From a virus: DNA of 36,944 nucleotides. This document shows, in pieces, positions 4,758-25,618 of the stretch. Every line of letters begins with the position of its first letter. The first letter of the stretch is position 1. The notes under the pieces were generated by a model. That model did no database searches, was not told the origin of the DNA, and saw nothing but the letters and a program-made list of their open reading frames with translations. The translations under genes and the position numbers were made by a program. The DNA is taken from positions 1 through 36,944 of the IMG/VR virus record IMGVR_UViG_3300041411_000156; one strand, given 5' to 3'.

Positions 4758-7592
4758 TTAAATAAGGTTGTTTTTTATATCGCTATCATTTTGATAATAA
4801 CGTTCGTCAAGGTTCACCAGTGTTAATTCATTTTCAAAGACACCTGCGCGATTCTTGGTTGTAATAAGAAAAAGATCATCGTTTTGTCGATCATCCGTTG
4901 AAAGTGAATAAACCGTTTTAACTTCGCCTTGCGTTACTAGCGCCTCAACTGGTGGCCGTGATAAAACAAAATCAAAATCAGTTGCACCTTGAGTCACTGG
5001 TATGATGTCGATGTATCCACTTTTAAGCTGAAGGTGAATTACAAATGAATGCTCAGTCGATAATTTACAAGGCTGTGAACCTGTAATATTTAAACCGTTC
5101 CAAGCTAAAACCTCACCCGACAAAATAGCTTTTGATGGATCACCAAAGAACGTTGGAGCCAAACGAGTATCATCAACCACCGCAACCGGATCACCATTGC
5201 CGACCAGCTCTCCCTCAGCAAAACAGGAGTAGCGACAATTGACGGCTTGATACTTAATCTTATTCCAAGCGCGCCACGCAATAATGTGTGCTTGCTGCTT
5301 ATAAACGACCCCGTAACCCTCAATTTTCTTAGGGTTTGTGATCTGGTCATTAGGAATTTTTAAAGTCTTCTCAACCCAGCCAGCTTCACTATCAACGTAT
5401 GTAAACTCTACACCGTCATAATTGTTTTCTGGTTTAGTTCGGATTGTTCTAACTTCTGTACGGGCCTTTTTGTTACGATGATTAAATAACAAATAAGGCT
5501 CTCGACCTGTGCGCTCAAGCTCAAAGTAAATCTGACGATTTAGACGGCGATCATTACAACAAGAAACGCCTGCAAACATTCTAAGAATCTCTTCAAATGA
5601 TTGGTTTGCATCATCAATTGTGTAATTGAACTCTGCCATTTTTTCCGAGCCAAAATAATCCACAACCTCATCAAAAACATCATAAAGTTTAGCTGTATTG
5701 ACCTCATTTAAAGTGCGGCGGCCAACTAGCTTATGCAAAGCAAGTTCAATGACGAGATCAGGGATGAATCTTGATGGAATTCGACTTTCTGATTGTGTAC
5801 CAGTTCGATAGGTATAAACCAAGCTCTCAGCGATACAGTTTGTCATACGGCTATCAATGGCCGTTGCAGCGCGTGTTGCTTGGGTACGTTGACGAATTAG
5901 GACTCGATCCTCATAAACAAGCTTATCTAAATAACGATATGCATAAGCTGTATAGAACTTTGTTTCATCCGATAAATCTACAGCGTCCCCATTATCATTA
6001 GTGCGGCGTGCTCTAAATCGTACAGCCCCAGTAAATGGAAGGGTAATCCACATTGAGCCGCCGACGCTGTCACGGTTATTTGCTTTACCATTTAAACGAA
6101 TTGTTTGATTAAAAACAGGTCCAGTTTCCACACCTGAAACGACTTTTTGATATTCAACATAGATATCCACAAATTTTGCATCAGAGCCTTGATATAGACC
6201 ATTCAAGGCTTGGAAATTTAATAACAGTCCAGTAGCTTTCGCCGATTCAATCGTAAACCAGCCAATATAGTTGTCTTGGCTACCTCTTAACTTGATTGTA
6301 CCAACGCCTGTTTTCTGGTCTGTTAAATCTGCAAGTTTATTCCAATCACCATTTACAGCACTTGGGGTTGCCAAAGAAATTTGCTTATTGGCAATATCTA
6401 CACCTGTCACTAAATAGTCGCCATCTAAAAAAACACTTCCTGTATTGGCAGTTAAATTTGCTGAAAGATTCGCTGTCAAAACTTCAGTAAGGTTTGCAAA
6501 GTTTGAGTTAGTGGAGACAGGATTCAATAAGTGAATTGTGTAGACACCCGACACATAAGTTATAGAATCAATATTGTATAAGCCTGCTAGGTCAAGCTGC
6601 CCACTCACTGGATCCGATACCAGAAGTGAAGTTACATTGATCTTTCGGTAATTCTGAAAGTCTACAACTGGCTGGGTTGAAGCTATCGAAAAGGTATTAT
6701 TTGTGTTATCTACATCCACCTGCCCTGTAATAGACAATTCTTCAATACCAAAGTTAGCACCACTGATAATAAGCGAGTCATTAACATCAAAGGCGCTAAA
6801 TTTATCAGCAGTTCCCTGGTCATTCGCTTTGATCAAGTTCGGGTATTGAAAATAAATGTCACTTGCTTCAATGCGTGTACTGTTTGGCGGTAAAAGAGTT
6901 TGACCATTAATTGATGCATTCTGGCGCGCAATGATAGGCGGCTGATCAAAAGTATCACCCCACTTATAAATCGTATCATTCCCAATTAAAGATTGATTGT
7001 GTCCATAAGCTGAAACGCTTGTACCGGGTATTTCCTGTATAGGTGTATCACCTGCTTTGAAAGTAGATACTTGAACTTCATTTTCACAAAGACACATCAA
7101 AGTCTCTTCAACCTCTACCCCATCTTTAAAATACTTAATGACTGGGGCAAAAAGGTCTGGAATAGCTTTAACACGACCCAAAATAAAAGGAATGCGTTGT
7201 TTTAACCGTTGTCGGTTCTCTGGATCTGACAAGTTGTTATTGCTTGAACCAGACATTGAACCGTTATTGCTCATGTTTGGCTTTGGAACTTTCACCAAGG
7301 CAGAAACGGCAGAACCCAGAATTTTTGTGGCAACCCAAGTTACGAACGAGGAAAGCTCTCCCGGATGACAGACAATACTGCAATCTTCTGCAATTTCTGT
7401 TAACCGTGCAATTGATGCCTTATCATTTCGTGTGGGTGTGATGTCATTTTCGGGACATGGATTGCCAAGATAAATCTTTGCTTGTGGAAATTCTTTTTTG
7501 ATTTTCAAGAATTCATACAGAATATTTTCTGCATCAATTACATCAACCTCATCTTTGTTAAGTGAGTTCTTGTGAAGGTAAATTTGGCTCAT
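4758..7592 (-). CDS. Tail tip attachment / host specificity protein J-like
   Basis: A 944-aa protein in the position of lambda gpJ, directly after a gpK-like peptidase. The N-terminal third contains the basic RQRLKQRIPFILGRVKAIPD, followed by GTSVSAYGHN, which I read as hub-domain features of the TipJ family; the middle (about 560-640) has the fibronectin-like stretch with VRFRARR found in J proteins; then SRIPSRFIPDLVIELAL and a region around FAGVSCCNDRRLNRQIYFEL typical of the phage tail tip barrel; the end is variable. It would form the tail-tip hub that carries the fiber and triggers DNA ejection. I use the ATG at 7592 (GGATTCGATATT before it), which overlaps the upstream gene by 35 bp, rather than a start 22 codons earlier. 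Confidence 0.8.
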   Translation of the reverse strand: MSQIYLHKNSLNKDEVDVIDAENILYEFLKIKKEFPQAKIYLGNPCPENDITPTRNDKASIARLTEIAEDCSIVCHPGELSSFVTWVATKILGSAVSALVKVPKPNMSNNGSMSGSSNNNLSDPENRQRLKQRIPFILGRVKAIPDLFAPVIKYFKDGVEVEETLMCLCENEVQVSTFKAGDTPIQEIPGTSVSAYGHNQSLIGNDTIYKWGDTFDQPPIIARQNASINGQTLLPPNSTRIEASDIYFQYPNLIKANDQGTADKFSAFDVNDSLIISGANFGIEELSITGQVDVDNTNNTFSIASTQPVVDFQNYRKINVTSLLVSDPVSGQLDLAGLYNIDSITYVSGVYTIHLLNPVSTNSNFANLTEVLTANLSANLTANTGSVFLDGDYLVTGVDIANKQISLATPSAVNGDWNKLADLTDQKTGVGTIKLRGSQDNYIGWFTIESAKATGLLLNFQALNGLYQGSDAKFVDIYVEYQKVVSGVETGPVFNQTIRLNGKANNRDSVGGSMWITLPFTGAVRFRARRTNDNGDAVDLSDETKFYTAYAYRYLDKLVYEDRVLIRQRTQATRAATAIDSRMTNCIAESLVYTYRTGTQSESRIPSRFIPDLVIELALHKLVGRRTLNEVNTAKLYDVFDEVVDYFGSEKMAEFNYTIDDANQSFEEILRMFAGVSCCNDRRLNRQIYFELERTGREPYLLFNHRNKKARTEVRTIRTKPENNYDGVEFTYVDSEAGWVEKTLKIPNDQITNPKKIEGYGVVYKQQAHIIAWRAWNKIKYQAVNCRYSCFAEGELVGNGDPVAVVDDTRLAPTFFGDPSKAILSGEVLAWNGLNITGSQPCKLSTEHSFVIHLQLKSGYIDIIPVTQGATDFDFVLSRPPVEALVTQGEVKTVYSLSTDDRQNDDLFLITTKNRAGVFENELTLVNLDERYYQNDSDIKNNLI

Positions 7593-7938
7593 AATATCGA
7601 ATCCGATTAAAAATAATCTCTGCTTGCTCCACAGTGATTCGCTCTGGTCCACGCTCAATTAAGTGAAAAATTCGACCTTGAAAAAAAAGCCCGACATGCG
7701 AGCTTTGATCCGAGTAAGTCATTAAGACAATGCAGCCATCTTTGGGCTCTTTTATTTGCTTGTTTCTATGAACTGTATTGCGTGAGGTTTTGATTGTTTC
7801 TTGCAGTGGGCCTGTTAAACCCAAGAAACACGGCGTGTAATCTTTTTCAAAAATGACCTTTGCAGCCAGTATGACAAAATGCACACAGTGAAAGTTTTCA
7901 GGATCATAAACACAGTAAAAGAGCTGCCGAATATTCAT
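7558..7938 (-). CDS. NlpC/P60-like tail assembly peptidase (gpK C-terminal domain)
   Basis: A 126-aa protein with a Cys in FHCVHFV (about residue 18) and a His in SSHVGLFF (about residue 81), spaced as in NlpC/P60 Cys-His peptidases, followed by a beta strand and the ERGPERITVEQA stretch. In lambda this domain is the C-terminal half of gpK; here it stands alone without the JAB/Mov34 domain. Order between the gpL-like and gpJ-like genes agrees. It probably cleaves peptidoglycan or acts in tip assembly. Its ATG overlaps the preceding stop as ATGA. Confidence 0.72.
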   Translation of the reverse strand: MNIRQLFYCVYDPENFHCVHFVILAAKVIFEKDYTPCFLGLTGPLQETIKTSRNTVHRNKQIKEPKDGCIVLMTYSDQSSHVGLFFQGRIFHLIERGPERITVEQAEIIFNRIRYYEPNLPSQELT

Positions 7939-8444
7939 GAATAGAACCCCTCAAGGCTCGGATCTGTGCTTGCTGAGTAGATCTGCCCATTACCTGAGTT
8001 ATTTAAACCCGGTGCCTGTGCTTCAAAACTTGTGCCTTTCCAATCTCGTGTAATTACAATGATTTCTAAATCTTTTGCTAGTGAACACGGCGTATCGTAT
8101 TTGCCGATAACATAGGCTCTATAATTTAGAATTGGTGGAACTCTTTCAGCATCTTTCAAAATTAGATCGACTAAATCGGGAATTTCCGAACCAACATCAC
8201 CAATTGAAACCGTGATTTTCTGGTCTAAGTTTTCCTCTTCATTACCTCGCGTAACGTTTAAAGGTGCATAAGAATAGGTAAAGGTTTGCCCATCCTCATG
8301 TGTTAGATCCATTGGATCACTGCCATTCACAATATATCGAAGCACACGCGGCCAATTCGGGTGTGATATCTCTACACATTCAAGCAAACCAACGGGGCCA
8401 GATGATTGATCTAAAACAGCTAACATTTCATCAGTAACTATCAT
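7935..8444 (-). CDS. Minor tail protein, DUF1833-like (gpL position)
   Basis: A 169-aa tail-tip protein in the place of lambda gpL. The stretch PLNVTRGNEEENLDQKITVSIGDVG and the NYRAYVIGKYDTPC region resemble DUF1833 members found between the M-like and K-like genes. Start at the ATG preceded by CAGGAGTCTAATA, two bases after the upstream stop; an earlier in-frame start lacks a site. Exact role in the tip is inferred from gene order. Confidence 0.7.
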   Translation of the reverse strand: MIVTDEMLAVLDQSSGPVGLLECVEISHPNWPRVLRYIVNGSDPMDLTHEDGQTFTYSYAPLNVTRGNEEENLDQKITVSIGDVGSEIPDLVDLILKDAERVPPILNYRAYVIGKYDTPCSLAKDLEIIVITRDWKGTSFEAQAPGLNNSGNGQIYSASTDPSLEGFYS

Positions 8445-8446
8445 TA

Positions 8447-8926
8447 TTAGACTCCTGTAGCGCTTGGGAACCATTCATTAGGGATTTTTTTGATAGTGCC
8501 AACAACGACCAGCCCACCATTCTGCCAAGCTTCAATAATGTTCCTGTCGTTTTCAGGATCTCGATAAATCGGCTTAATCCTTAACTGAAAACTGATTTGC
8601 AGAATCTTGCCGTCTCGCTCGTTTTCTTGGGGCTTAGAATCGGCTATAAATCGACATTCGCACTCTTCTAGTGTTCCGTTATCAAGTGCAAGCCTCCAAA
8701 GCCAGTTGTTTGGATTGCGTTGCTTATCCCGCCAAAATGCCCAGAAATATTCTTTCTCATCAGAATTGTTAAGCGAGATAGATACATCGGCTGTGTGCCA
8801 TGCACCCACAAAAAAAGGGACTTGCCTTGGCGGTCCCCCTTCTGTTTCTTGCTCCCTTAAATTGCTTCCGGGTGAAAAGTTATACCCTTTCATTAAAGGG
8901 CAAATCATGAGTCTATCCACTATCAC
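8447..8926 (-). CDS. Minor tail protein (gpM position)
   Basis: A 159-aa protein directly downstream of the tape measure, in the position of lambda gpM. Visible features are an aromatic segment EYFWAFWRDKQRNPNNWLWRLALDNGTLEECECRF, here given only as landmarks (FWAFW, NNWLWR, CECRF), and a closing PNEWFP. It probably belongs to the tail tip complex that starts tube assembly. The GTG at 8926 overlaps the tape-measure stop as GTGA; an ATG six codons in (8908) is the alternative start. Confidence 0.6.
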   Translation of the reverse strand: MIVDRLMICPLMKGYNFSPGSNLREQETEGGPPRQVPFFVGAWHTADVSISLNNSDEKEYFWAFWRDKQRNPNNWLWRLALDNGTLEECECRFIADSKPQENERDGKILQISFQLRIKPIYRDPENDRNIIEAWQNGGLVVVGTIKKIPNEWFPSATGV

Positions 8927-11817
8927 CCCCGATTTCGTGACACATTAAAACTTTCCTGCATTGCTTGGCTGTACTTGCTGTTTGGGTTGTAAACATCCTC
9001 AATGGTCACATATACCTTCCCATCATCACCAAGTGTCGTGTCGACATCAGCTTTACTATTGTTGTAAACCACAACTTGAGGTCCACTATCTTTTTGATTG
9101 CTCAAATAATTAGTAAGGTCTTTGTTTTGGTTAGGATTTAAGACACGTTCACCACCATCAAGTAGCCAAGTACCTTCTTTGGGAACATTGCCGATACCAT
9201 CGTGCGCCATACCAGTTAAAGAGGTTTGCTTGATCTGTGCCGCTTGTGCCAATTGCACACCAACCGCTGCTGCTGCAAGAGCTGGGGCAATATATGGCCC
9301 AATTAATGGGATTGCAGACACGGAGGTATAGACGTTTGAAAAGGTTTGAGGGGCATTGATTAAAGCTTGTGCCACTGCGAATGCTTTCGACATTGCAAAC
9401 ATGGCCTTATATCCTGCTGATTGCTCACCAAGCAAGCCTCCCATTAGGTCAGCCATTCCGCCTAGTGTCTCACTAGCAGACTGCAAGCCCATTGATGTCT
9501 TTTTGCGGTTATAGTCCTGATCAATCAGAATCATTCGATCAGTGTGCTGCTGCCATAATGCTTCACGTTGCTCTGCAATTGATTGCAAGTCCGCATTTGG
9601 ATCTTGCTCTTGTTGATCAAGAACAGCGGATTGTGAATCAAAAACTGCAAATGATTCTTCATATCGACCGCTTTTCTCTTGCTGCAATCCATATAAAGGC
9701 GAAAACCCCGCCATATCAGCAAAGTTGCTATTCCACTTTTCAGCTGCTTGAGCTGCTGTCTCAGTTGCGCTTTTTAACTTTTCATACTGTGCTTCCCGAT
9801 ATGCATCTAAATCCTTCAGGTAAGCTTTTTCTTGCAATCCTAAATATAGATCGAGTGAGTTAGTATCCCCAGCAAATGCAAGTTTAATCTGCTTTTTAGC
9901 CTCTTCATTTTCAAGGACTAACTTTTGTTCAGGAGTTGCATATTTAAGAGTAATCGCTAGTTGTTTCTTTAAGCGCTCCTCTTGTATTTTCTCCGCTTCA
10001 TCGTTCGCTTTTTGGAAAATATCAAGCTCTGCATTTGCATCCTTTAATGCATCTGCTGTGCCCTTATATCCAAGAACTGAAACATGAATATGACCGCCAG
10101 TTGCTCGTTTTGACGGGTTTTTATATTCATCAAGAACTTTAACAACAAAACCATATCTTTTTGCTATCTGCTCAAGTTGGGAAACCGCCTCACCAGACTT
10201 TTTCGCATCCTCAAGTGTGAAGTCAAAAGCATTACCGGTTGCGTGTTTGCTATTGGTTCCCTTGTGATAAAGATCATTGAATGCGGTAAATCTATTTAAG
10301 CCGTTACCCAATGCAGATTGCGTCATTTGGGCAAAGTTCGCTGTATATGCTCTAACTTGACCACCAGCAATAGACTCCTGACCTTTGATACGCAAACCGC
10401 TTAGAGCAGATGCACCAACCATTTTATTAAGGTCTTGTTGTGCTTTTGCTGCTTTAGCTGCCGCCTTTGCCTGCTCCTCTTTAGCCTTTGCATTTTCTTT
10501 GGCTGTTTCGGTGTCGGTAATGGTACTTTTTGAATTGGCTAAATTAGCTTGATTGACTTTTAACTGTGCAGCAGATAAGCCAGTTAAAGCAGGCATTGTT
10601 CCTGTTTTAACATTACTTACAAAGCTCATCATGCTTGTGATGGTCTTATCAATACCTGAAGCAGTATCAACCCAAATGGCCTTGCCTTCGCTAAAGCCTG
10701 TCTTAAGAACGTTAATTTGTTCTTTAATGGTTGTTGCAGCATCTAGTCTTGCGGCCACATTACCAACATGATCAATTAAACTTGCAAAGCCACTAATTGA
10801 CTGAATTACTACTGAAACTGCACTAGCAACCCCAACAATGGCAATTCCGACCACCTTGGCCACTGTGCCAACGGCGCTTAAAACGGTTCCAAAGCTTCCA
10901 CTTTTTACAGCACCATCAACAAAATATTGAATCAAATTGCTTAATACAGGAGTCATTTGACCAGCTAACTGGTTTTTGAACCCCTGAAATTGTGTGCCTA
11001 GCGCCTGTGTTTGAGCGTTCAGAATAAGTGACTTATCAATACTTTCTTGAGTGCGAACTACGCCAGCTTCACGCAACTGGTCGCCATATTCCTTGATTAA
11101 TGCAGCATTGTTAGCAAATAGTGGTGCCAAGTCACCTAAATCACTTGCTAATGATTCCAATACGAAACGTTTTTCAGCAGCAGTTGCGCCCATATCATCC
11201 AGTTTCGTGGTGATTTGACCCAGCGCCTCCACTGTATCCATGGTTGATAATTTCTTGGCGAAGTTATCAATTTCTTTTGCTGACATTTTTGTGTTGTTGG
11301 CTAACATTTCAAAAAAGTCTTTTGCGCCACCACCTTTTGTAGAGGTATATTCACCCAGCTTCTCAGAGGTATCAGCTAAAATGTCGCTTAGTTTTTCTTG
11401 CTCAACCCCAAAGGCACTTGCAGCACCTGCCACAATTTGAAAGTTTTCAGCAGAAGTTACTGCTCTTCGAGATAATTGGTTAAGTTGTGCATCTGCTTTA
11501 GCGAGTTCAATTGCCATTTGACCAAGTGCGCCAGTCGCCAAGACTGTTCCGCCCACTGCCATTCCTGCAAGCGCTGCACCCGCCATAAGAACACCACCAC
11601 GCAAAGCCCCTAATTTGCCAGTAATTCCCTCAATTGCAGATCCAATTTGAGTACCCCCAATTGCATCTTGAATCTGATCACCAAAGCTTTTGAAAGACTT
11701 CTTCATATTGTCGGAAGCTTCTTTTGCCTTTCTTTCTGCCTGACTCATTCCATCAACAAATGAACCAACTTTCGCAACCAGATCAAGTGTTAAACGACCT
11801 AATGAACCAGCAGCCAT
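8923..11817 (-). CDS. Tape measure protein with internal M15-like peptidase motif
   Basis: A 964-aa tail length ruler. The N-terminus is helical with charged coiled coil (AERKAKEASDNMKKSFKSFG), then hydrophobic Ala/Gly-rich segments (about 65-100 and 310-345) that could enter the membrane during DNA ejection, then Lys/Ala-rich coiled coil (about 435-465). Residues about 475-580 carry a peptidase M15-type signature: SKHATGNAFD (Ser523, His525, Asp532) and GHIHVS (His576, His578), the zinc ligands of D-Ala-D-Ala carboxypeptidase-like enzymes, suggesting local peptidoglycan cleavage. Near the C-terminus come a hydrophobic Ala-rich stretch and the motif GNVPKEGTWLLDGGERVL. Good ribosome site GGGAGAAAAGTAA before ATG. 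Length implies a tail of roughly 140 nm by the usual 1.5 Å per residue rule. Confidence 0.92.
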   Translation of the reverse strand: MAAGSLGRLTLDLVAKVGSFVDGMSQAERKAKEASDNMKKSFKSFGDQIQDAIGGTQIGSAIEGITGKLGALRGGVLMAGAALAGMAVGGTVLATGALGQMAIELAKADAQLNQLSRRAVTSAENFQIVAGAASAFGVEQEKLSDILADTSEKLGEYTSTKGGGAKDFFEMLANNTKMSAKEIDNFAKKLSTMDTVEALGQITTKLDDMGATAAEKRFVLESLASDLGDLAPLFANNAALIKEYGDQLREAGVVRTQESIDKSLILNAQTQALGTQFQGFKNQLAGQMTPVLSNLIQYFVDGAVKSGSFGTVLSAVGTVAKVVGIAIVGVASAVSVVIQSISGFASLIDHVGNVAARLDAATTIKEQINVLKTGFSEGKAIWVDTASGIDKTITSMMSFVSNVKTGTMPALTGLSAAQLKVNQANLANSKSTITDTETAKENAKAKEEQAKAAAKAAKAQQDLNKMVGASALSGLRIKGQESIAGGQVRAYTANFAQMTQSALGNGLNRFTAFNDLYHKGTNSKHATGNAFDFTLEDAKKSGEAVSQLEQIAKRYGFVVKVLDEYKNPSKRATGGHIHVSVLGYKGTADALKDANAELDIFQKANDEAEKIQEERLKKQLAITLKYATPEQKLVLENEEAKKQIKLAFAGDTNSLDLYLGLQEKAYLKDLDAYREAQYEKLKSATETAAQAAEKWNSNFADMAGFSPLYGLQQEKSGRYEESFAVFDSQSAVLDQQEQDPNADLQSIAEQREALWQQHTDRMILIDQDYNRKKTSMGLQSASETLGGMADLMGGLLGEQSAGYKAMFAMSKAFAVAQALINAPQTFSNVYTSVSAIPLIGPYIAPALAAAAVGVQLAQAAQIKQTSLTGMAHDGIGNVPKEGTWLLDGGERVLNPNQNKDLTNYLSNQKDSGPQVVVYNNSKADVDTTLGDDGKVYVTIEDVYNPNSKYSQAMQESFNVSRNRG

Positions 11818-11881: not shown

Positions 11882-12244
11882 TTAAGGGGTGTTTTCCCAG
11901 TTGCGTTTATCACACGCCTCTCCATCCCTTAATTTTGAATCAATGCACTTTTGAGCATACTTAAAATACGGCGCTCCCGTGATATCACCTGTGTAGGCAG
12001 GACAGCCCATATCGCGGCTTTGTTGCATGAACAAGCTTATTTCATTTTGATACTGTGGAATCTTTCTGGACTTCACAAACATCATCCCATCAACCGACTT
12101 AGCTCGCTCAACTTCAAAAACCTTTTCAAAAGCAATTGATTTTGTTTTTTCATCAATTTTGTTCGTAATATCTTCACAATTTACAGGGTTTGCATGTAAA
12201 CCTACTGAAAAAAGCGCTGAAATTAAAAATATTGCTTTTCTCAC
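11882..12244 (-). CDS. Secreted Cys-containing protein, possible moron
   Basis: Product of 120 aa when started at the GTG at 12244 (GGTGATAAT before it), which gives a textbook signal peptide: VRKAIFLISALFSVGLHA with an A-x-A-like HA cleavage site. An ATG 13 codons upstream is possible but adds a polar N-terminus and lacks a ribosome site. The mature part has four Cys residues (NCED, GCPAYTG, KCID, ACDKR), probably two disulfides in the periplasm. It separates the G/GT chaperones from the tape measure, where lambda-type phages have no gene, and is followed by its own terminator. This looks like an inserted accessory gene; superinfection exclusion is a possible role but I recognise no family. 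Confidence 0.65.
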   Translation of the reverse strand: MRKAIFLISALFSVGLHANPVNCEDITNKIDEKTKSIAFEKVFEVERAKSVDGMMFVKSRKIPQYQNEISLFMQQSRDMGCPAYTGDITGAPYFKYAQKCIDSKLRDGEACDKRNWENTP

Positions 12245-12308
12245 ATTATCACCATTTGTTTTTAGACTTAGACAATTTAACAAACAGTGCGCTTAATGTC
12301 ATTTATGG

Positions 12309-12336
12309 ATAAGTTGACTTCTTGAAGCCAACTTAT
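12309..12336. other. Long hairpin over the gpT stop codon
   Basis: An inverted repeat with a 12-bp stem (one G-T mismatch pair) and a 4-base loop; ATAAGTTG and CAACTTAT are its outer arms. The gpG-T stop codon is inside it. No U-tract follows on either strand, so it may be an RNA stability or processing element rather than a terminator. Confidence 0.5.
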
Positions 12337-13078
12337 TCGTCTGCTAATTGTTCCAAATAGTCAGCTAGACTAAGCTCTTCTTTGTATTCGTGAGGCATGA
12401 AGTTAAGTGCATCAACCTGCTCAGGATTTCTTGAATGGCTCCTGATATAAATTGCCGCCAAGTTGCCAATTGCTTGCTCAATACGGCGACCAAGAAAAAG
12501 AGAGCCTCGTCTCATACGATAGGCTCTCCAAATGTTAAGTTCTCTTAAGCTTATTTTTTGCTTTGCTTCTTCGATGGTGATTCCACCGATTCCAAGGGCA
12601 AGTTCGCACCAGAATTCGTATTCGTCAAGTTCTTCTTCCGTGACTTTCCCATGAAGTTATTCACTTCATCGGCCACGGCATAAAGAGACTCAATGAATGG
12701 GATTTCAGAATTAAGAACGTCTTGAACTGAGCTAAAGAATGGGGTGCCTTTTGCATCTTCACAAACCGAACCTAGCAAATGTCCTGCTTGCATACGTTTT
12801 ACACTTACTGACTTGAGCTTCGAGTCAGCAATATTATCTTCGTTGATTTCCCAGTCATACGCCTTAGAAATTTCATGAAGATCGTTGAAGGCTAGTTTTT
12901 TAATAAAAACTTGTCCTTCTAATTCTACTTTTTCACCAAAAGTTAATTCACGTTTGAGTTGAGCAGTAAGAAAATCAATATTTTCTTCTGTTACTTCAAC
13001 AACCCATTTGACAGTTCTTTCAACTGGTGCACCAATTTTAGTGACCTTTTTAAATGCTTTAATATTTACTTTAGCCAT
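12333..13078 (-). CDS. Tail assembly chaperone gpG-T fusion by -1 frameshift
   Basis: Frameshift product of about 248 aa. Ribosomes read the gpG-like frame to Lys145, slip back one base at the heptamer GGGAAAG (12644-12650), and continue in the -1 frame: V-T-E-E-E-L-D-E-Y-E-F-W-C-E-L and on to EQLADE, ending at 12333. The -1 frame is open all the way and contains the EYEFW and LNIWRAYRMRRG stretches expected of the T domain. In lambda the same heptamer makes gpGT, which binds the tape measure and recruits tube protein. A separate ATG at 12515 in this frame is likely internal only. Confidence 0.85.
12551..13078 (-). CDS. Tail assembly chaperone gpG-like
   Basis: Unshifted product of 175 aa, made in excess over gpG-T. 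It begins MAKVNIKAFKKVTKI, has the ELTFGEKVELEGQVFIKKL core, and ends in a Lys/Ser-rich tail SPSKKQSKK, where the tail is an out-of-frame reading of the T-domain codons. The start codon overlaps the tail tube stop as TAATG. Together with the shifted form it should keep the tape measure soluble during tail assembly. Confidence 0.82.
   Translation of the reverse strand: MAKVNIKAFKKVTKIGAPVERTVKWVVEVTEENIDFLTAQLKRELTFGEKVELEGQVFIKKLAFNDLHEISKAYDWEINEDNIADSKLKSVSVKRMQAGHLLGSVCEDAKGTPFFSSVQDVLNSEIPFIESLYAVADEVNNFMGKSRKKNLTNTNSGANLPLESVESPSKKQSKK
12644..12650 (-). other. Programmed -1 frameshift slippery heptamer GGGAAAG
   Basis: On the minus strand the frame reads ATG GGA AAG, so the heptamer is correctly phased as G GGA AAG and both tRNAs can re-pair after a -1 slip (GGG, AAA). 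It is identical to the lambda G/T slippery site. The overlap from this point to the gpG stop is about 90 bases. Confidence 0.85.
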
Positions 13079-20410: not shown

Positions 20411-20893
20411 CTAACTAGGCAATTGATTATCCAAAGTGGCGTATTTGCCAGTCCTTGTCGCTTCTTTTGCCTTATCTTGTTTTGTTTCTTTCTTGCCTTT
20501 TTCCGCAACCTTGCCATGCTTATAAGGAAGTGCTGCAATTGCTGCCTGCATTCTTAGTGGTAGCTTGTTGCCATTAAAGTTCATGACCTTAATTAAAAAG
20601 TCTAAAGGGTCATCGCCTTCAAATTGAAATTCCTCAATAGGGTTTTCATCTTCACCGCTATTTTCGGGTTCGTTTTCTGGTTTAACATTTGGTTGATCAG
20701 ATGTTAAAGATCGTCCTTCTTTTTTGGCCTTTAACATTTCGATATAAACAATAATTTCGGGGTCTTTCGCTAATCTAGCACCTGCGGCAGATGCGGTTTT
20801 TTCTGCATAACCTGCTGAAATTGCTGCTTCTTTATTTGTCTTGCCGTCAACAATGGCAAGAGCAAATTTTTCCATTTTCTCTGTTAATGCCAT
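20411..20893 (-). CDS. terS: Terminase small subunit (Terminase_2/XtmA-like)
   Basis: A 160-aa DNA-recognition subunit. The N-terminus MEKFALAIVDGKTNKEAAISAGY...ASAAGARLAKDPEI is the helix-turn-helix of the Terminase_2 family (about residues 5-50, landmarks only). A middle acidic linker (PENEPENSGEDENPIEEF) is followed by DPLDFLIKVMN...LPLRMQAAIAALPYKHGK, the oligomerisation helix region, and a Lys-rich tail. It binds the packaging start site. The spacer just upstream has three TTTAACTT repeats that are candidate binding sites. AAAGGTAGAGCA precedes the ATG. Confidence 0.88.
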   Translation of the reverse strand: MALTEKMEKFALAIVDGKTNKEAAISAGYAEKTASAAGARLAKDPEIIVYIEMLKAKKEGRSLTSDQPNVKPENEPENSGEDENPIEEFQFEGDDPLDFLIKVMNFNGNKLPLRMQAAIAALPYKHGKVAEKGKKETKQDKAKEATRTGKYATLDNQLPS

Positions 20894-22202: not shown

Positions 22203-22422
22203 TTAAGTTTACTCGCGCATCAACACCATTTAATAAGTCAATCGATATCCAATCAATATCCAAGCCTTTGCGTTGATATTCTTGGACCAACTTAACCAAA
22301 TTGAGTTCCATGCGTTTCCTTAGAACTTCTGGAGTTTCAATCTCAAGCACTGTGTACGGCTGCTCAAGACCATCTAACCCATAAAAACCCAAGCGATTAT
22401 TAATAATGCTCTTCGGAATCAT
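22132..22422 (-). CDS. Hypothetical protein, 96 aa
   Basis: Protein starting MIPKSIINNRLGFYGLDGL, with VLEIETPEVLRKRMELNLVKLVQEYQRKGLDIDW (helical) and a Thr/Asn/Glu-rich C-terminal tail that is encoded by bases also used for the HNH start. The ATG at 22422 has AGGTGAGCAAG before it, better than a GTG three codons upstream. No family recognised. Confidence 0.6.
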   Translation of the reverse strand: MIPKSIINNRLGFYGLDGLEQPYTVLEIETPEVLRKRMELNLVKLVQEYQRKGLDIDWISIDLLNGVDARVNLNETPNVQEQVTETTGTRTNPEEP

Positions 22423-22897
22423 CTTGCTCACCTATTAGATCTGGAGTGGCGCGAACAACACCATAAATATCTTTAATCACTCCTGTTGCTGGTGGAATGA
22501 CTGTTGAATGATGAGGATTATTTTTAAGGTACTTAGTGAGATCATCACTCTTGGCCTGCTTAAAAATTCTTTCGCCCTTATCAACCAAGAATGTCCCTTC
22601 TAGAGGAATATCCGCCACTCCAGAAATTGATAGACCTGTTATAGGTCCATACTTACTTTCATTGCCGGCATATTCCTGAGCCTTTACACTGAATAGGTTT
22701 GCTAAGTCCGTATCAGTTAATTGCTCTAACACTACTGGGCTGCCAATGGCTACAACTTTTAATCCAGACTCTTTAGCTATCAACTCAAGCTCTTTGCAAA
22801 AGCAATCACGTTGGTGGGTTGATTGGAATAATTTGGAGTCATAACGGACAATAAGAAACTTTGTCTCTGGCTTGATCTGTTCTATATCGAAATTCAT
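22400..22897 (-). CDS. Hypothetical protein carrying a tape-measure C-terminal motif
   Basis: A 165-aa protein of unknown function. Residues about 10-60 look like a small alpha/beta unit (KFLIVRYDSKLFQSTHQRD, LKVVAIGSP). Residues about 94-130 contain GVADIPLEGTFLVDKGERIF followed by DDLTKYL, closely resembling the tape-measure segment GIGNVPKEGTWLLDGGERVL...DLTNYL near 9110-9215 of this same prophage. The C-terminus is polar. The ATG at 22897 follows GGGTGATGAT and lies just beyond the previous stop. It may interact with the partner that normally recognises the tape-measure end; this is inference. Confidence 0.62.
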   Translation of the reverse strand: MNFDIEQIKPETKFLIVRYDSKLFQSTHQRDCFCKELELIAKESGLKVVAIGSPVVLEQLTDTDLANLFSVKAQEYAGNESKYGPITGLSISGVADIPLEGTFLVDKGERIFKQAKSDDLTKYLKNNPHHSTVIPPATGVIKDIYGVVRATPDLIGEQDDSEEHY

Positions 22898-22901
22898 ATC
22901 A

Positions 22902-23126
22902 TCACCCATCTAGTGACTTAGATTTGTTGGTTGGCTCGCCGTCTTCAAACATCTCAAGCACTGCACTTAATTGCGCCGTTTGTTCTGAATTGATTTGAAT
23001 GAGTAAGCTATTCTGTTCGATCAGCCTATTGTTGTGATCAGTCAGTTTGTTGTTGTGATCTATAAGCTTGTTTGTCTGCTCTATTAGCTTAAGCACAACA
23101 TCTTGCAAATTTGGTTCACTGCTCAT
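22902..23126 (-). CDS. Coiled-coil protein with five heptads, 74 aa
   Basis: After MSSEPNLQDVVLK comes a strict run of seven-residue units, each starting with Leu: LIEQTNK, LIDHNNK, LTDHNNR, LIEQNSL, LIQINSE. This predicts a parallel coiled-coil oligomer with a polar Asn-rich face. The underlying DNA shows near-direct 21-bp repeats (about 23013-23092), so the heptads grew by duplication. The C-terminal tail is acidic then basic. The start at 23126 overlaps the NinB-like gene by 11 bp; an in-frame ATG eight codons upstream is the alternative. Function unknown. Confidence 0.6.
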   Translation of the reverse strand: MSSEPNLQDVVLKLIEQTNKLIDHNNKLTDHNNRLIEQNSLLIQINSEQTAQLSAVLEMFEDGEPTNKSKSLDG

Positions 23127-23646
23127 TTTGATAACACCACTTAAGGTCATCCGGGATAATCAACATCATGCCCAAGTCTCTATGTGCATAGATGTTGATC
23201 TTGTCCAGATATTTAGTGAATTCTTTAATGGTTGCCTTCTTACTTTGAAGATGGTCTCTAACAAATGTGTGGACTAAAACTTGATAATCCTTCTCAAGCT
23301 GTTGGCGTTTGTTGCCATCGAATGCTTGAACCACATCTTTAAAGTTCTGCAAAGCTCTATACTTTTCGGCTGTATCTTGTCGGCCTTCTACATAGATGCG
23401 TGAGAGATACTTTTTCTTGAAAAATAAATGAAGGTCATCACTTGAATTGCCTGTCTTCTGCCTGATCTGCTCAAGCCAAGCCCAATAAAGCCGATTTTGT
23501 GCGGTACTCCTATCATCAGCTTTCTGATTGATTCTGACGATTAAAGGCTTACCTTCTGCGGCTGCTGTAGAGTGGTTGTTGTTCAGGTAGTTAATTACCT
23601 GAACAATCCCAGAATAACTATTGATTGGGAACGTTGCTGGTTCCAT
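23116..23646 (-). CDS. NinB/Orf-like recombination protein
   Basis: A 176-aa protein. The stretches LIVRINQKADDRSTAQNRLYWAWLEQI and, at the end, KEFTKYLDKINIYA...LGMMLIIPDDLKW match NinB-type (lambda Orf) proteins, which bind single-stranded DNA and assist RecA-type loading in phage recombination (landmarks only). A middle insert with SSDDLHLFFKKKYLSRIYV differs from lambda Orf. Other Nin-region style genes (HNH fold, Lar-like) surround it, which agrees. Confidence 0.72.
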   Translation of the reverse strand: MEPATFPINSYSGIVQVINYLNNNHSTAAAEGKPLIVRINQKADDRSTAQNRLYWAWLEQIRQKTGNSSDDLHLFFKKKYLSRIYVEGRQDTAEKYRALQNFKDVVQAFDGNKRQQLEKDYQVLVHTFVRDHLQSKKATIKEFTKYLDKINIYAHRDLGMMLIIPDDLKWCYQNEQ

Positions 23647-23661
23647 ATTCCCACCTATAAT

Positions 23662-24060
23662 TTATTCATCCACGGCGGCGCGTTTACCAGCTTCTAAAAC
23701 TGGAACGTTTGCCTCAGTTGGAACGTAAATAATTTGCTGAATCTTGCCATCACGCAAAGCATCACCGAATGCACCGATAAACTCTTGTTTCCTATACTCA
23801 GGATAATCTTTTGCAGCTTGACCAATTGTTTTGATTGCTTCTGCACGTAACTTAGCGCTTTCAAGTTCAGCTCGCGCCGTTTGGACCTGAATCATTTTTG
23901 ACTGTTCAGCTTCAGCCAGTAACGCCTGACCATTCATGCCTTGCTTCCACACCTTGTAGTGAGGCCATGCAAACATAAGCAACATAATGACAATTAAAAC
24001 GGCAAAAAAGCATAAAGCAGCTAACACTACATCGGCTTGCCCTTTCTGGTTGGTTTTCAT
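23662..24060 (-). CDS. Membrane-anchored protein resembling the tail of SPFH proteins
   Basis: A 132-aa protein with one transmembrane segment (about residues 12-36, VVLAALCFFAVLIVIMLLMFAW), followed by a long Ala/Glu-rich coiled coil (LLAEAEQSKMIQVQTARAELESAKLRAEAI; landmark) and a C-terminal motif with IGAFGDALRDGKIQQIIYVPTEANVPVLEAG. The coiled coil plus the IQQIIYVPT end resemble the C-terminal part of stomatin/prohibitin/HflK proteins, without the SPFH domain itself. The ATG at 24060 follows AGGAAGCGAGAA and lies just past a terminator. A role in membrane protease control or host-membrane organisation is speculative. Confidence 0.6.
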   Translation of the reverse strand: MKTNQKGQADVVLAALCFFAVLIVIMLLMFAWPHYKVWKQGMNGQALLAEAEQSKMIQVQTARAELESAKLRAEAIKTIGQAAKDYPEYRKQEFIGAFGDALRDGKIQQIIYVPTEANVPVLEAGKRAAVDE

Positions 24061-24083
24061 TTCTCGCTTCCTTTTTAGGGACA

Positions 24084-24106
24084 CAAAAAAAGAGCCTCTC
24101 GGCTCC
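24084..24106 (-). terminator. Intrinsic terminator upstream of the SPFH-tail-like gene
   Basis: Minus-strand stem GAGCC/GGCTC with loop GAGA and a run of seven T. The upstream 50 bases (24107-24162) are non-coding and can fold into competing hairpins using AAAACCCA, AACCCA and one TGGGTTTT. Confidence 0.82.
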
Positions 24107-25120: not shown

Positions 25121-25618
25121 TTAAAGAACTATTGGCGCCAAGTCAAGCTTTTTCTTGGCATTTTTCGGTTTGTCTTGTTTCTCTGTCAATTTGCTGCGTA
25201 GCGTGTTGCGCTGCCCAACGATATAGGCAATACCACATTTCAAATCTTGTCTTACGGCGTTACGTGAGCATTTGCTAATGTCTGCGATTGTTTCTTCACT
25301 TAATCCGTGCACATGGTACATAACTACAAAATCAATCCATTCATGTAATGTAGGGTTTTGACTCATGCGTAAATCACGTAAAAGACCACTTACAGCACGT
25401 GCCTCATCTGTAGTTATTTTACATTGCGGTAAAACGCGCTTTCTTGCATCACGTTTTACGCCTTCTACTGATTCAATCAAAAAAGTTAATGTGTTGCGCG
25501 TACCTAAATATGTTTCTGCATTATCTTCATTAATCCATGCCCCAAACTGTTCAAGCCATTGTTCAATTGTGTATTTCTTCCAGTTACATGCTTGTAATAC
25601 GTGTGGATTCTTACTCAT
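25121..25618 (-). CDS. Antitermination protein Q-like
   Basis: A 165-aa protein of the Phage_antitermQ type: an N-terminal EQWLEQFGAWI segment, PQCKITTDEARAVSGLL in the middle, and a helix-turn-helix FVVMYHVHGLSEETIADISKCSRNAVRQDL (landmarks only) followed by a Lys-rich tail. Family members load on RNA polymerase at the late promoter and make it ignore terminators. Its place between the replication genes and the late genes, with eight intrinsic terminators downstream, fits. AGGGGTTAATTA precedes the ATG. Confidence 0.75.
   Translation of the reverse strand: MSKNPHVLQACNWKKYTIEQWLEQFGAWINEDNAETYLGTRNTLTFLIESVEGVKRDARKRVLPQCKITTDEARAVSGLLRDLRMSQNPTLHEWIDFVVMYHVHGLSEETIADISKCSRNAVRQDLKCGIAYIVGQRNTLRSKLTEKQDKPKNAKKKLDLAPIVL

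Follow-up and report, generated by a model that had tools for sequence, protein, structure and literature searches.

A small accessory gene of an Acinetobacter-type prophage carries a module homologous to the C-terminal region of the tape-measure protein

We found that an Acinetobacter-type prophage contains a small accessory gene encoding a segment homologous to a module of the C-terminal region of the tape-measure protein (TMP) of the same prophage. The window, by which we mean the whole stretch of DNA analyzed (36,944 nucleotides; IMG/VR record IMGVR_UViG_3300041411_000156), contains this open reading frame on the minus strand, from an ATG at 22897 to a stop at 22400, with a predicted product of 165 amino acids; an alternative in-frame ATG at 22909 would extend the product to 169 amino acids. 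Profile matches divide the protein between two families that are already in PHROGs without an assigned function. Residues 1-68 correspond to phrog_18156 (E 9e-25; hereafter gene A) and residues 82-165 to phrog_10539 (E 1e-18; hereafter gene B). The parts of the gene and the two copies of the module are as follows.

22400..22897, minus strand: probable chimeric gene, 165 amino acids, with a gene A N terminus and a gene B C terminus (open reading frame and two-family match)
22700..22897, minus strand: residues 1-66, gene A domain (phrog_18156; a stand-alone 81-amino acid protein in relatives), from PHROGs and relatives
22640..22699, minus strand: residues 67-86, junction segment, from DNA and protein alignment to L032, L034, and L035
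22514..22639, minus strand: residues 87-128, TMP-like module TGLSISGVADIPLEGTFLVDKGERIFKQAKSDDLTKYLKNNP, from a TMP-only HMM, BLASTP, and hhalign
22400..22513, minus strand: residues 129-165, gene B tail ending in GEQDDSEEHY, common to the intact gene B of L003, L004, and L027
8923..11817, minus strand: tape-measure protein, 964 amino acids (phrog_1506, E 6e-172)
9097..9216, minus strand: TMP copy of the module, residues 868-907, located 57 residues before the C terminus and directly after the last hydrophobic stretch (833-856)

An earlier note on this DNA had claimed by eye that the gene carries the TMP C-terminal motif, and several independent comparisons confirmed it. In the window protein, GVADIPLEGTFLVDKGERIF occupies residues 93-112 and DDLTKYL residues 118-124, while the TMP has GIGNVPKEGTWLLDGGERVL followed by DLTNYL at about residues 873-905. 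BLASTP of the window protein against the TMP returned one real match, with 38% identity over 56 residues and an E value of 4e-10 in that comparison. The TMP-only HMM, built from 31 distinct TMP modules that all came from other phage records, matched only the TMP and the window gene when run against the window open reading frames of at least 40 amino acids. It scored the window gene at 40.0 bits (E 5e-12 among the window open reading frames) and the next open reading frame at 6.3 bits, and among 20,000 shuffled versions of the window protein the highest score was 12.0 bits. The profile-profile comparison, which the earlier note had named both as its check and as its refuter, was highly significant, as hhalign aligned the gene B and TMP profiles over 51 columns with a probability of 98.4% and an E value of 7.9e-15. 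Thus, residues 87-128 of the window protein are, on the basis of these alignments, homologous to residues 868-907 of the TMP.

Apart from the module, the two genes are unlike each other and lie about 13 kb apart, as had been noted before, and the remainder of the window gene is modular as well. The homologous C-terminal module is the one tape-measure property that we found in the window gene; the length of several hundred residues and the hydrophobic segment(s) of a TMP are absent, and the gene does not lie between the tail chaperone and tail tip genes but between NinB-like and HNH/terminase genes. Because it has no hydrophobic segment, the 165-amino acid protein is soluble, unlike the TMP. 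At the DNA level, the two copies of the module are about 54-59% identical (54% over the module), with the same codon at 6 of the 18 shared residues. That the module was duplicated recently from the TMP, or copied from it by gene conversion, was rejected on the low DNA identity, the few common codons, and the fact that the phage's own TMP is no nearer than others, in agreement with the earlier view that the DNA had diverged. In a fixed-anchor alignment, gene B modules showed an identity of 0.525 to their own TMP and 0.521 to other TMPs, as compared to 0.92 between TMPs and 0.73 between gene B copies. Thus, the module is not tuned to the TMP of its own phage.

We also evaluated how widely the module is distributed. 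The TMP profile was matched by 49 of 50 related viral records, in the short or fragmentary ones solely through the gene B module itself, and 37 of the 38 TMP 3' regions from these records contain the module, the exception being G049. When 2.9 million viral contigs were searched twice for exact motifs of the non-TMP variants, 33 and 9 contigs (42 together) were found, nearly all of them known gene B carriers; a newly opened one (L205) carries gene B as well. No non-TMP family other than gene B was found to carry the module among the contigs checked from these searches. Within PHROGs, the module matched TMPs, the window gene's own family, and one unnamed family that resembles a C-terminal piece of a TMP. 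In a spread sample of GenBank phages, all annotated matches were to tape-measure, tail, or unnamed genes; among the unnamed, the two that we opened (PSTCR7 and STP-SP5) are TMP-sized. The module of the window gene had no match in Pfam or the PDB; Pfam hints to MCR_C, ING, and DUF3381 fell under the curated cut-offs and were set aside as chance. A generic loop, the alternative that the earlier note had raised against itself, was thus ruled out by the Pfam, PDB, and viral pattern scans, the latter returning only the gene B family among the contigs checked. The hosts, where named, are all Acinetobacter, and two scans of bacterial genome contigs found no relatives. On plasmids, gene B occurs only on a 120-kb Acinetobacter nosocomialis element, present in two records. 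This plasmid (L037, CP033552.1:1-13290) has the same prophage-like cassette of NinB, coil protein, gene B, HNH, and terminase, which suggests a phage-plasmid or an integrated prophage. We found no description of the TMP module outside tape measures in the open-access literature.

The earlier note had treated the window gene as a stand-alone gene. The open reading frame is indeed there; its reading as an ordinary single gene did not hold up, since comparison with relatives points most likely to a fusion of A and B, with gene B as the native carrier of the module. In related prophage contigs, A and B are two adjacent genes, separate in L032, L034, and L035, where the start of gene B overlaps the end of gene A. 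Gene A encodes about 81 amino acids in these relatives and gene B normally 162-187, with a maximum of 241. A gene B product begins with an N-terminal domain of about 73 amino acids, which is followed by a coiled coil, the TMP module, and then a short tail. Of gene A, the window retains roughly the first 66 residues, and of gene B roughly what follows the coiled coil, although the exact joint is uncertain; the junction residues 67-86 may be diverged gene B coiled-coil sequence, an origin that is likewise uncertain. The TMP-like module and the PDL..GEQDDSEEHY tail of phrog_10539 are present in the slot before phrog_14128 and HNH, and the MPR..LLDNGEYL..KAIIEV N-terminal domain of that family is absent, with the gene A domain in its place. 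The window gene is thus probably an in-frame deletion-fusion of A and the C-terminal part of B, in which the front of gene B was most likely deleted. Among the related records compared, no other showed a fusion like this one. Deletions in two of them (L031:9989-10252 and L033:9989-10252) arose independently and left gene A fused to only the final 10 residues of B (GEQDDSEEHY), indicating that the A/B junction region is deletion-prone. Longer forms of gene B were seen in L032 (4195-4920) and L035 (2948-3625). The former contains a second, partial copy of the module (16 bits with the TMP HMM), and the latter a weak second candidate, HDGNGRVPPRAIWMLHDRESEL, which at 5 bits is not significant.

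Comparison of gene B relatives indicates that the module is an add-on. Relatives L088-L092 (77-106 amino acids) consist of the gene B N-terminal domain alone or nearly so, and L092 scored -0.5 bits with the TMP HMM, as compared to 24 to 75 bits for full gene B proteins. Judged from these sequences, gene B is at base a small stand-alone domain to which a coiled coil and the TMP module are appended. The module has been lost from gene B in L031 and L033; the TMP module is kept in G027/G028. In L069-L074 and L079, the gene B module is shortened or altered, L028 has a stop inside the module, and L036 has a frameshift. We estimated dN/dS from 12 diverse gene B sequences as a pooled pairwise value, which is not a codon-model test, and obtained 0.17 for the N-terminal domain, 0.13 for the coil (where synonymous sites are near saturation), 0.28 for the module, 0.24 for the module core, and 0.49 for the tail. 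By this estimate of about 0.28, the module is under purifying selection, and its GVxxVPxEGTxL core is retained across gene B proteins that otherwise differ widely. Within gene B, the module is nevertheless less conserved than the N-terminal domain and the coil, and the tail is under weaker constraint.

The genes around the window gene follow a recurrent order on one strand, namely Q-like, NinB-like, 82-amino acid coil protein, A, B, phrog_14128, HNH, and terminase; this order held across the 18 loci compared, in some of which individual genes are missing or undetected, and the slot of the gene was always between the Q-like antiterminator and the terminase genes. The neighboring features in the window are listed below.

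25121..25618, minus strand: Q-like antiterminator, upstream of the window gene (phrog_79, E 2e-34; same order in relatives)
24091..24106, minus strand: intrinsic-terminator-like hairpin with a T run, between Q and the gene cluster (pattern match only)
23662-24084, minus strand: 140-amino acid neighbor (phrog_11227, labeled protease in PHROGs; no Pfam peptidase match)
22902-23150, minus strand: 82-amino acid coiled-coil-like repeat protein (NKLIDHNNKLTDHNNRLIEQN), just upstream of the A/B slot in the loci compared
20411..20893, minus strand: terminase small subunit, downstream of the window gene and on the same strand (phrog_641, E 3e-53)

The hairpin is a candidate Q-readthrough terminator, and no sigma-70-like promoter was seen on the minus strand between 24604 and 21171. 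Given the gene order, the putative terminator, and the probable lack of an own promoter, the window gene is probably expressed late, in a Q-dependent manner, together with the TMP. A protease as the link to the TMP C terminus found no support, as Pfam does not back the protease label of phrog_11227.

Within the TMP, the module sits between the last hydrophobic stretch (833-856) and the C-terminal helix, and an alignment of diverse TMP C termini shows no other long invariant block. AlphaFold2 models of gene B (mean pLDDT 61, pTM 0.26) and of the TMP C terminus (pLDDT 46, pTM 0.31) both place the isolated module, unstructured, between a long and a short helix, with pLDDT mostly below 50 there. 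In these models, the module is without a confident fold by itself, and Foldseek found no significant match (best E 0.095). In other phages, removal of the last 30 TMP residues abolishes tails (TP901-1; PMC5099701), the last 43 residues of the processed T5 TMP insert between hub subunits after opening (PMC10038345), and for residues 1022-1066 of the JBD30 TMP the prediction is a hook made up of two helices and a hairpin (PMC11445458). The module has no significant sequence similarity to the TMPs of T5, lambda, and JBD30. Elsewhere in the window TMP, residues about 511-564 showed a weak, below cut-off match to VanY-like D-Ala-D-Ala carboxypeptidases (E 0.009); this stretch is a possible embedded cell-wall enzyme. 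Also on the minus strand of the window are the candidate TMP chaperones (11882-12283 and 12333-12515), the tip proteins (8447-8926, 7935-8474, and 7558-7938), and the hub/J-like protein (4758-7658).

What might such a protein do? In Pseudomonas phage JBD26, tail assembly is inhibited by Tab, which acts via the C-terminal region of the TMP; Tab is in turn bound by anti-Tab, the product of a small late gene adjoining the small terminase gene (PMC10884400). By analogy, the reading that we prefer, only tentatively, is that the window protein may be a decoy for an anti-tail-assembly inhibitor and would thereby protect the TMP, a role that anti-Tab plays with a different sequence. The earlier suggestion of a decoy or competitor fits these data. 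Made late with the TMP, the protein would be a soluble mimic of a TMP segment; it would bind the partner of that segment and so compete for it. The likeliest partner would be a tail-assembly inhibitor that recognizes the TMP C-terminal region and comes from a resident prophage, a satellite, or the host. Once this inhibitor was soaked up, the phage's own TMP would be free to start tail assembly, and the role of anti-Tab would be reached by mimicry instead of by an unrelated binder. The general form of this idea, that the TMP C-terminal module is a detachable decoy carried in trans by small late proteins, which sequester TMP-directed inhibitors as a form of mimicry counter-defense, is a doubtful proposal at present. 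In its favor we count the homology, the add-on nature of the module, its constraint, the fixed slot, the dispensability of the gene, the solubility of the protein, the Tab/anti-Tab precedent, and the TP901-1 requirement. Several points count against it. No TMP assembly inhibitor is known to us from these hosts, and the window yielded none. If the protein really competed with the TMP segment, it could impair the tails of its own phage as well. The shortened or altered modules are as expected under weak or changing pressure, the lateness comes from gene order, the anti-Tab precedent is one of function only, and the fusion is seen only in the window record.

Four other readings were weighed, and in our ranking they follow the decoy in the order in which they are taken up here. 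A regulator or competitor in the phage's own tail assembly, in which the late soluble module would occupy the tip hub or a TMP chaperone and tune the timing or number of tails, is rather unlikely. It would suit the late-operon position, as judged from gene order, and the fact that no other block of the TMP C-terminal region is as conserved as the module; in T5, the 43 residues at the end of the processed TMP, which are comparable in position, dock between hub subunits (PMC10038345). However, the gene is dispensable, as it is missing or deleted in some phages that retain the module in their TMP. Gene B modules do not follow the TMP of their own phage, and the T5, lambda, and JBD30 TMPs have no detectable sequence similarity to the module. 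The optional gene, the recombining slot, the probable lack of an own promoter, and the module not matched to its own TMP lead us to favor an accessory decoy over a core assembly factor. The same recombining region invites the reading that the module is a relic, captured from a TMP by illegitimate recombination and carried passively. The repeated damage there (the A/B fusion in the window, the L031/L033 joins, the L028 stop, and the L036 frameshift) and the lower conservation of the module than of the gene B N-terminal domain and coil would agree with this; we nonetheless consider a relic unlikely, as the dN/dS lies well under 1 and otherwise divergent gene B proteins preserve the GVxxVPxEGTxL core.

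A TMP fragment able to bind the tip could be dominant-negative, so the mimic might resemble Tab itself, occupying the tips of phages that co-infect or superinfect and thereby poisoning their tail assembly. Near-identical TMP modules occur on different backbones (964 to about 1248 amino acids), and one decoy could therefore act widely. As its own TMP has the same module, self-poisoning would be expected without a protector, and unlike for tab (PMC10884400), we detected no own promoter for expression in the lysogen; we regard this reading as improbable. Two different N-terminal domains are joined to the same module, in native gene B and in the window chimera, which would also suit a docking tag that brings accessory domains (the gene B N-terminal domain, or here the gene A domain) into the tail tip, to be ejected with the TMP. 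The helix, extended module, and short helix predicted in both contexts, with low confidence over the module, are compatible with such a tag. It is nevertheless the one to which we give least credence, because both domains also occur without the module and the tail lumen is already filled by the TMP.

Tail assembly cannot start without the C-terminal region of the TMP, which is also targeted by phage-encoded interference with this process. Its presence as a conserved copy in another protein suggests a short interaction surface, and a small protein of this kind could be used as bait for the partner. If the decoy reading is true, mimicry would join the known ways of protecting tails, and TMP-targeting defenses would be predicted in Acinetobacter.

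Compared to known systems, the window protein shares with the TMPs of lambda-like siphoviruses (phrog_1506, phrog_13674, phrog_2854, and phrog_339) a homologous module of 40 residues with the pattern GxxxxGxxxxPxEGTWLLxxGERVLxPxxNxxLTxYL. Unlike them, it is only 165 amino acids long and lacks the tail-length region, the hydrophobic channel segment, and the C-terminal docking helix, and its gene lies about 13 kb from the TMP gene, beside the terminase genes. The gene is built from parts of both phrog_10539 and phrog_18156, neither of which is whole in the window. The T5 pb2 anchor (1085-1127; PMC10038345) and the JBD30 hook (1022-1066; PMC11445458) likewise follow directly after a hydrophobic stretch and precede the C-terminal tip-docked part, but their equivalence to the module is positional only, without significant sequence similarity. 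Matches of the window protein to PADLOC defense models were at chance level only. With JBD26 anti-Tab, the window gene shares a late-operon position close to the small terminase gene, here by gene order only, whereas its product has no similarity to Tab and chance-level similarity to anti-Tab. Since anti-Tab resembles neither its own TMP nor the module, the precedent is functional and not sequence-based. The Tai/Ati systems of phi80 and relatives (PMC11364771), likened here by description, also combine an anti-tail-assembly defense with a linked late counter-defense gene before the packaging genes, although their target is the central tail fiber and not the TMP. In the window gene, a known module stands in a new arrangement, for which a connection to a type of phage conflict described only recently is plausible.
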